Origin: a bacterium
GTDB taxonomy: Bacteria > UBP15 > UBA6099 > JAJRTR01
Length of the DNA: 10,607 nt
Reading direction: 5' to 3'
Assembly: GCA_024278215.1 (NCBI GenBank)
Contig: JAJRTR010000187.1
Location: 1 to 10,607 of the forward strand
The notes below the pieces were generated by a model, which ran no database searches, was not told the origin of the DNA, and saw nothing but the letters and a program-made list of their open reading frames with translations. Positions 3,068 to 9,989 of this stretch are shown one piece after another (position 1 is the stretch's first letter; the number at the start of each line of letters is the position of its first letter). The position numbers and the translations under genes are program-made.

Positions 3068-3107
3068 GTTTGTTCCCCCGGTGTACGCTGTGATATTACG
3101 TATACTT

Positions 3108-3285
3108 GAGCCAATTGCAAAATTCTGATTCTGCTGCGGTCGGCTGCTATTGTCCATAGCTGCGTGGTCGGCATAAAATCGTCCTCGATGTACTTTACAT
3201 GTACGCCTGCGAGGATTTTACACCTCCGCCTTGCTCTGAACAATTTCGCTCGACCTCGCTACGAACATAATTTTGCAATCGGCTC
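3108..3285 (+). repeat. Palindromic MITE-like element, copy 2 (between znuB and moaB)
   Basis: The 178-bp element has terminal inverted repeats GAGCCAATTGCAAAATT (3108-3124) and AATTTTGCAATCGGCTC (3269-3285), 16 of 17 matching. The inverted similarity continues inward. At the centre TAAAATC, CCTCG and GTAC on one side (about 3173-3196) face GTAC, CGAGG and ATTTTA on the other (about 3204-3221). The whole element can therefore fold as one long interrupted hairpin. It has no transposase and no intact gene. Its right end abuts the znuB TAA (3286-3288) directly. Confidence 0.87.
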
Positions 3286-4152
3286 TTATGAAGATATATC
3301 AGACCTCTTGATTTTGCGCCTTCGCAACAGTCTCGAAGCGGCTGTTACAACGAGGTAACATGCGCCGGCGACAACGATTATCGTCGCGCCCGCGGGCAGA
3401 TTCGGACTGTAGCTGACCGCGAGTCCCGCCGTAGTGAACAACATGCTCAGGAGCACGGACAGGCCCATGATTTTCCATAGTGTGCCGGAGAAATGTCCCG
3501 CGACGGCAACGGGCAGGGTGAGTAGTGCTATGACCATTATCACGCCGACGACGGAAACTGTCAGAACGACCGTCAACGCTGTAAGGCAGAGCAGCAACAG
3601 GTAGTAGAACTCGACATTTATGCCCCGAACACGCGCGAATTCTTCGTCGAAGCATATTCCCATAAACTGGTTGTAGAGCAGCAATCCCGCGCCGGCGACA
3701 ACGACGTCAAGCGTCGCTATCAGCAGGATGTCGCTCGTTTTTACCATGAGAATATTCCCGAACAGGTAGCTCATCAGGTCTTCATTGTAGCCGGGTGTGC
3801 GCGATATGAACAGAACGCCGACCGCCATACCCAGCGCCCAGAGAGCGCCGATGACCGTGTCCTCGCGCTCTTTGGCGCGGATGCTGACGAAACCGATGAT
3901 AAATGCTGCCAGAAGCGCTGCCGCCACTGCCCCGTAAAGGGGATCGAGAAATGACCAGCCGCAGACTTTATTGAGGTAGTTGGCGGCGCCGAGCCCGCCC
4001 AGCACACAGTGCGCGATGCCGCCCGCGATGTAGCTTATCCGCCGCATTATTACATAGGTGCCGATTATGCCGCATGAGACGCTGACAAGCAACCCCGTGA
4101 TCAGCGCGTATTGCAGGAACGTGTAGTGGCCGACGGCCCTGATGAATTCCAT
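3286..4152 (-). CDS. znuB: Zinc/manganese ABC transporter permease, ABC-3 family (ZnuB-like)
   Basis: This is a 288-residue, strongly hydrophobic inner-membrane protein with roughly eight membrane segments, the normal size for ABC-3 permeases. Family features are RRISYIAGGIAHCVLGGLG near residues 37-55, VSVVGVIMVIALLTLPVAVA in the C-terminal half, and SPNLPAGATIIVVAG near the end. It forms the channel that moves Zn2+ (or Mn2+) from ZnuA into the cytoplasm. Its ATG at 4152 overlaps the TAA of znuC by one base (TAATG), which indicates translational coupling. It ends in a basic tail, RLLRRRKIKRSDISS, with the stop immediately beside the 178-bp palindrome. The last few codons could have been altered when that element arrived. 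Metal preference cannot be decided from the sequence. Confidence 0.93.
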   Translation of the reverse strand: MEFIRAVGHYTFLQYALITGLLVSVSCGIIGTYVIMRRISYIAGGIAHCVLGGLGAANYLNKVCGWSFLDPLYGAVAAALLAAFIIGFVSIRAKEREDTVIGALWALGMAVGVLFISRTPGYNEDLMSYLFGNILMVKTSDILLIATLDVVVAGAGLLLYNQFMGICFDEEFARVRGINVEFYYLLLLCLTALTVVLTVSVVGVIMVIALLTLPVAVAGHFSGTLWKIMGLSVLLSMLFTTAGLAVSYSPNLPAGATIIVVAGACYLVVTAASRLLRRRKIKRSDISS

Positions 4153-4923: not shown

Positions 4924-4956
4924 TTTAACCCGCATATTTCACCAATGCGGGTTAAA
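4924..4956. repeat. Palindrome with conserved loop, copy 2 (znuA-znuC junction)
   Basis: TTAACCCGCAT (4925-4935) and ATGCGGGTTAA (4945-4955) form a perfect 11-bp stem, extended by one T-A pair, around the loop ATTTCACCA. It occupies most of the short gap between the znuA stop and the znuC ribosome binding site. In the znu mRNA it would be a stable hairpin immediately before AAGGAAGG. There is no U-tract after it, so it is not an intrinsic terminator. It may act as an mRNA stabiliser or translational control element, as intercistronic REP hairpins do in some operons. Confidence 0.78.
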
Positions 4957-9637: not shown

Positions 9638-9843
9638 TTGATTCATGTGTAACAAGTGGTCTCCAGCCATTTCCCGAATCTGTTGAAAAGCTGCTGTTTT
9701 CTTTGATGCGCTCCGCTGTGCGAGTTCGGTAGTGAAGAAACAAAAGCCTCTTCGCTATTTGGTGTGGGTAGAGAAATGTAGTGTGCCGGAGGATAACCAA
9801 ATGTTTGCAAAGACCTATGTAGAGTTTTCCACAAATCCACCGT

Positions 9844-9867
9844 CCGGCAATCCTGTGGAATTGCCGG
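9844..9867. repeat. Hairpin
   Basis: CCGGCAAT (9844-9851) pairs perfectly with ATTGCCGG (9860-9867) around eight bases, and CC/GG inside the loop can extend it. It is one of several palindromes in this intergenic region. Confidence 0.55.
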
Positions 9868-9935
9868 GAAACGGTGAGTATTGTGGTAAACTCGGCTCGA
9901 TAGCTATGAGTTTTCCGTGCACACCGAAGTTTTTA

Positions 9936-9989
9936 TGGTGAACGCGGAGTGTTCAGTCCCTGCGTTCCGGGACAGCACCGCGGAACGCA
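9936..9989 (+). repeat. Two-hairpin dispersed repeat, copy B
   Basis: The 36 bases at 9936-9971 match the reverse complement of 2013-2048 with one mismatch. That mismatch (C to T in the first hairpin arm) shortens the first stem to four base pairs. The second hairpin is TGCGTTCC (9961-9968) with GGAACGCA (9982-9989). It lies about 140 bases before the start of the sugar-nucleotide gene. Confidence 0.8.

Follow-up and report, generated by a model that had tools for sequence, protein, structure and literature searches.

ERIC sequences are approximately 127 bp long and are not known to have an autonomous partner; both they and Correia elements duplicate TA. More generally, prokaryotic MITEs are described as shorter than 500 bp, bounded by terminal inverted repeats (TIRs) of approximately 4-30 bp, flanked by duplications in their younger copies, and intergenic; an AT-rich sequence is typical of such elements, rather than defining (PMC10969869). 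Their copy numbers lie between 1 and 44 in several families, exceed 120 for Correia elements, and reach 711 for ERIC in Photorhabdus (PMC10969869).

The family described here is represented by an element within a window of 10,607 nucleotides, which corresponds to contig C165 of a 4.55 Mb draft genome (207 contigs, 95% complete). In its length, its TIRs, the duplications around its younger copies, its lack of coding capacity, and its multiple, mostly intergenic copies, it matches the description of prokaryotic MITEs. It departs from that description in composition, as the consensus element is not AT-rich (49% GC, compared with 51% for the genome), and only its flanks are. It is almost certain that this is a MITE family with 17-bp ends, inserted with 4-bp duplications preferentially at C-NNNN-G targets, and most likely moved in trans by a DDE-type transposase.

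Results

Structure of the element and its setting in the window

The window contains one full-length copy of the element, a second near-full copy, and the remnant of a third:

3108-3285, + strand (consensus orientation +): full-length 178-bp MITE copy, in the gap from the znuB stop codon to moaB
3108-3124, + strand: left TIR, GAGCCAATTGCAAAATT, 17 bp; the consensus TIR pairs at 17/17
3269-3285, - strand: right TIR, AATTTTGCAATCGGCTC, reading GAGCCGATTGCAAAATT on the - strand, with one mismatch to the left end
3104-3107, no strand: left flank ACTT, differing from the right flank TTAT (3286-3289); no intact target duplication
585-763, - strand: second near-full copy, 179 bp, inverted; flanks ACCT and AAGT, no intact duplication
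2195-2241, + strand: degraded left end from a third copy; 85% identity to the left end across 2195-2232, with the match extended to 2241 by nhmmer

The copy at 3108-3285 forms one long interrupted hairpin with its apex near 3197, its TIRs being complementary at 16 of 17 positions of this imperfect 178-bp palindrome. The preliminary description had claimed just such a palindrome from the sequence alone, and both the end alignment and the apical hairpin, placed where a central one had been proposed, agree with it. Folding as RNA and DNA, which it had recommended, gave structures far stronger than those of shuffled sequences (z = -6.6 for RNA of the + strand, -8.7 for RNA of the - strand, and -4.4 for DNA), with none of 200 shuffles folding equally well. 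The family consensus, which is also 178 bp with perfect TIRs, has a fold energy of -80.8 kcal/mol on the - strand, compared with -65.0 kcal/mol on the + strand. Lengths of 178 bp and 179 bp are found in about half and a third of copies respectively, and these two classes suggest at least two source variants. An Rfam search of the window matched no family.

The other copies in the window had also been anticipated. The opposite orientation of the copy at 585-763 is evident in the complementarity of its arms to those of the full-length copy (81% between 636-767 and 3104-3235, and 90% between 585-635 and 3235-3285), and the decayed third end, previously delimited at 2195-2232, is genuine and somewhat longer. 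None of the three has an intact duplication. Inversion between the copies at 585-763 and 3108-3285 was considered as the cause of the missing duplications, and was rejected on the grounds that the flanks do not fit.

The - strand of the window encodes znuA-like, ABC, ABC-3 (znuB-like) and MoCF_biosynth (moaB-like) proteins, and the element at 3108-3285 takes up most of the 218 bp that separate the znuB stop codon (3286-3288) from moaB (start at approximately 3067). Only 8 bp lie between the end of the copy at 585-763 and a likely gene start at 771, that of an unassigned secreted protein with a signal peptide. Other repeats are present in the same window. A short hairpin repeat, TAACCCGCATATTTCACCAATGCGGGTTA, which may be the solo end of an insertion sequence, is found at 2503-2531 and 4926-4954, and the motif TTTCACNAA with a stem of at least 6 bp occurs 63 times in 2.16 Mb. 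Further dispersed intergenic repeats lie at 1910-2064, 2089-2175 and 9745-9987, with similar sequences at up to 41, 17 and 14 places respectively in the DNA examined; 1997-2048 and 9936-9987, parts of the first and last of these, are mutually inverted copies.

Copy number and effects on the assembly

The preliminary description suspected a high copy number in the genome, and the end motif, allowing up to two mismatches, indeed occurs 719 times (355 + 364), compared with zero for a reversed-pattern control. Searching the genome with blastn recovered full-length copies at 94-97% identity among the 40 scored of 506 candidates. Examination of 2.16 Mb base by base, corresponding to 47% of the genome, identified 232 distinct copies or fragments, including 132 near-full copies. 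Extrapolation gives approximately 245 near-full copies and 430 copies in total for the whole genome, scaled by end counts rather than by length because the first stretches were picked for containing copies. Copies account for approximately 1.5% of the 2.16 Mb, a proportion that may be somewhat high for the genome as a whole.

These copies are among the chief reasons that the assembly is broken: of 159 contig ends examined, 38 are no more than 200 bp from a copy, compared with approximately nine expected. Hence the assembly loses copies.

Evidence for transposition

Target duplications were assessed in the 123 full copies for which both ends and flanks were readable. An exact 4-bp match between the flanks was found in 74 of these, against 2.39 expected from shuffling of flanks (maximum of eight in 1000 shuffles), and the element is therefore a transposon. 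Other duplication lengths were near chance, with six copies sharing 5 bp and no copy sharing 6-10 bp. The 73 usable duplications comprised 41 different sequences, hence these were independent insertions. Retention of the duplication rose with identity to the consensus, from 0/6 copies below 85%, through 5/17 at 85-90% and 31/47 at 90-95%, to 38/53 above 95%; this loss with divergence is an age gradient, as ageing predicts.

Empty sites, to which the preliminary description had looked for the target duplication, could be read from within the same genome: paralogous sites carry the 4 bp once, showing clean insertion. An uninterrupted site was alignable elsewhere in the genome for four duplication-bearing copies. 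The clearest, for C199:5166, is CCCATC-TTAC-GTCTTTT, with a single TTAC and up to 27 paralogous matches; that for the copy at C130:636 is ATATTATG, with 21 paralogous matches, and the remaining two (on C1 and C56) align more poorly around the junction.

Short derivatives of 39-159 bp also retain intact duplications, each with its own junction. The smallest, of 39, 46, 48 and 63 bp (C182:13840, C6:16952, C199:8779 and C26:8146), have both ends and exact 4-bp duplications. They may have arisen through deletion in place or through transposition of tiny forms, which are indistinguishable and equally possible; if they did transpose at that size, they would mark the minimal mobile substrate. A longer copy of 200 bp (C44:397-596), flanked by a TTTA duplication, contains a hairpin, CCGGATTTCTTTGTGAGAAATCCGG, as an insertion, and several truncated copies break near the corresponding insertion point (after CCATAG), beside similar hairpins.

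Target preference and genomic context

Target sites, read after the removal of one copy of the duplication, had C at position -1 and G at position +1 of the 4-bp target in 54% of cases, compared with a background of 25% (p = 5e-14), and the flanks were 38% GC, compared with 51% for the genome. Once elements were removed in silico, 102 of the 123 insertion points were intergenic, five were at sequence edges, and 16 fell in long ORFs, some of which may be spurious; ORFs make up approximately 86% of the DNA. The types of gene gap occupied track the intergenic space available, and neither end of genes is favoured. The element prefers to insert at C-NNNN-G within AT-rich DNA between genes.

Solo element ends are found directly 5' of gene starts (e.g. 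C6:47609, C112:87530 and C175:3502), and are possibly decayed copies giving promoter-like sequence.

Candidates for the source transposase

TIR ends lying no more than 6 kb from one another and sharing their 4-bp flanks were paired across 47% of the genome (2.16 Mb), and no autonomous element bounded by these ends was detected. The only long pairs with matching flanks, of 1443 and 1823 bp, are close to what chance would give from 108 long pairs, the latter enclosing a host gene resembling FapA, and pairs of 1422 and 1428 bp, without duplications, contain host genes; all four were rejected as the parent.

In genome-wide searches with Pfam families, the recognised transposases were limited to decayed remnants of four IS types. 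The preliminary description had proposed a comparison with insertion sequence termini of this genome, and these searches gave only fragments or elements lacking the ends of the family. Matches to DDE_Tnp_1 comprise a frameshifted IS4-like gene and two truncated IS1634-like genes, these family names, beyond the Pfam matches, being a reading of the sequences. Matches to PF13751 are fragments; in L074 they are IS debris beside which a MITE copy, flanked by a CATA duplication of its own, simply landed. PF13701 is represented only by a fragment near a copy on C44. PF13586, PF00872, PF05598, PF00665 and PF13546 had no match in the whole-genome searches. This leaves room for a parent in families outside the search (IS110, IS200/605, IS630, IS66 and others) or in the missing part of the assembly.

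Distribution

The family was not found in the 59 other genomes searched (60 including the host), six of which are from the same order and had TIR matches at control level. No exact end pair was present in the GTDB contig collection, from which records near this genome may be left out; no plasmid, phage or viral contig matched the element; and a literature search found no paper containing the end sequence. The closest relatives of one window protein, at 53-57% identity, come from five MAGs, one titled UBP15_UBA6099 and another ADurb.Bin236; judged from this single protein, the host probably falls in or near candidate phylum UBP15.

Discussion

The preliminary description proposed a non-autonomous MITE moved in trans. 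Copy number, 4-bp duplications, empty sites and the lack of coding capacity all support this; the enzyme acting in trans is the part that is inferred. Such a transposase, most likely of the DDE class judging from the combination of TIRs and a fixed short duplication, would recognise the 17-bp ends GAGCCAATTGCAAAATT (right end AATTTTGCAATTGGCTC) and make staggered 4-bp cuts, preferentially at C-NNNN-G in AT-rich intergenic DNA, leaving 4-bp direct repeats. The source enzyme would now be lost, decayed, or absent from the draft assembly, and the long imperfect hairpin would be a property of the transposed unit, with no RNA function indicated. A less expected scenario, which we consider improbable, is that the family was recently amplified and is kept active by a transposase type outside the common IS families searched. 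If true, a genome could contain hundreds of young copies although every transposase recognised in it is defective, and the enzyme responsible would be of a new or unexpected kind, using GAGCC... ends and C-NNNN-G targets.

The strength of the hairpin raises the alternative that this is a structured repeat kept for an RNA function, as an mRNA stabiliser, RNase III site or attenuator, with mobility only historical. The fold is very stable and better on the - strand, and the better-folding strand is the one transcribed in 38 of 62 co-directional gene gaps, a weak bias (estimated p ~0.1). Double changes at stems are also in excess (47 in total, compared with 20 expected under independence), and those that pair outnumber those that do not by 32 to 15, although this excess may come from sub-family variants shared between copies or from arm-templated repair. 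Single changes to the stems, however, are divided evenly between 51 sites keeping a G-U pair and 55 creating an A-C break, and individual cells lean towards breaking changes (295, compared with 187 keeping). Hence maintenance at the RNA level is not seen. Nor does the genomic context, which follows intergenic space rather than either gene end, or Rfam, where the element is unmatched, favour such a role. The structured repeat that the preliminary description offered as its alternative thus gains no support from the pattern of change among copies, and is very unlikely.

The element is palindromic, intergenic and high-copy, features shared with REPINs, palindromes that a REP-associated tyrosine transposase (RAYT) mobilises. 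Yet REPINs are not known to leave a target duplication, and neither the exact 4-bp duplications nor the 17-bp repeats at the extreme ends of this element fit that origin, making it extremely improbable. Equally negligible is the probability that the copies resemble one another through a shared coding domain, an explanation that the preliminary description had itself singled out as contrary to its own. Frame 3 of the + strand is open in 70 of 123 copies, and the copy at 585-763 falls inside a mechanical ORF (571-1884); but stops interrupt every frame in 53 or more of the 123 copies, the alternation between 178 and 179 bp shifts the frame, and the likelier start of that ORF, at 771 with its signal peptide, is downstream of the element.

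The family is new but belongs to a kind well known in bacteria, and its notable features are its abundance and the lack of a detected mobilising enzyme; the biology is otherwise ordinary. It is nevertheless a case of a high-copy MITE whose host apparently belongs to an uncultured candidate phylum, for which the exact ends, the length of the duplication and the preferred target are now described, and which breaks the assembly of its host. Taken together, the ends, duplication and target suffice for the source transposase to be recognised in an improved assembly or a closely related genome.

Among known systems, DDE insertion sequences with 4-bp duplications are in general alike in combining TIRs with a fixed short duplication, but here no transposase with these ends was found. 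ERIC, from Enterobacteriaceae and Vibrionaceae, is similarly a long imperfect palindrome that is intergenic, and present in up to 711 copies per genome (PMC10969869), although the element described here is longer, at 178 bp, has a 4-bp duplication, and has no sequence relation to ERIC, being unmatched in Rfam. The Correia elements of Neisseria are likewise short intergenic MITEs with TIRs, found in over 120 copies in N. gonorrhoeae (PMC10969869), but have different ends, and the duplication here is of 4 bp. The closest in length are Chunjie of Geobacter uraniireducens (178-235 bp) and QMITE2 of Coxiella burnetii (approximately 190 bp), and Chunjie and QMITE1/2 share the gradient from intact, duplication-bearing copies to truncated ones (PMC10969869). 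Compared by description, Chunjie has 38 copies and 57 partial copies, and QMITE1/2 have 45 and 78 (PMC10969869), against the approximately 430 in this genome. Among the copy numbers known for MITE families, that of this family is at the high end, yet not unprecedented.
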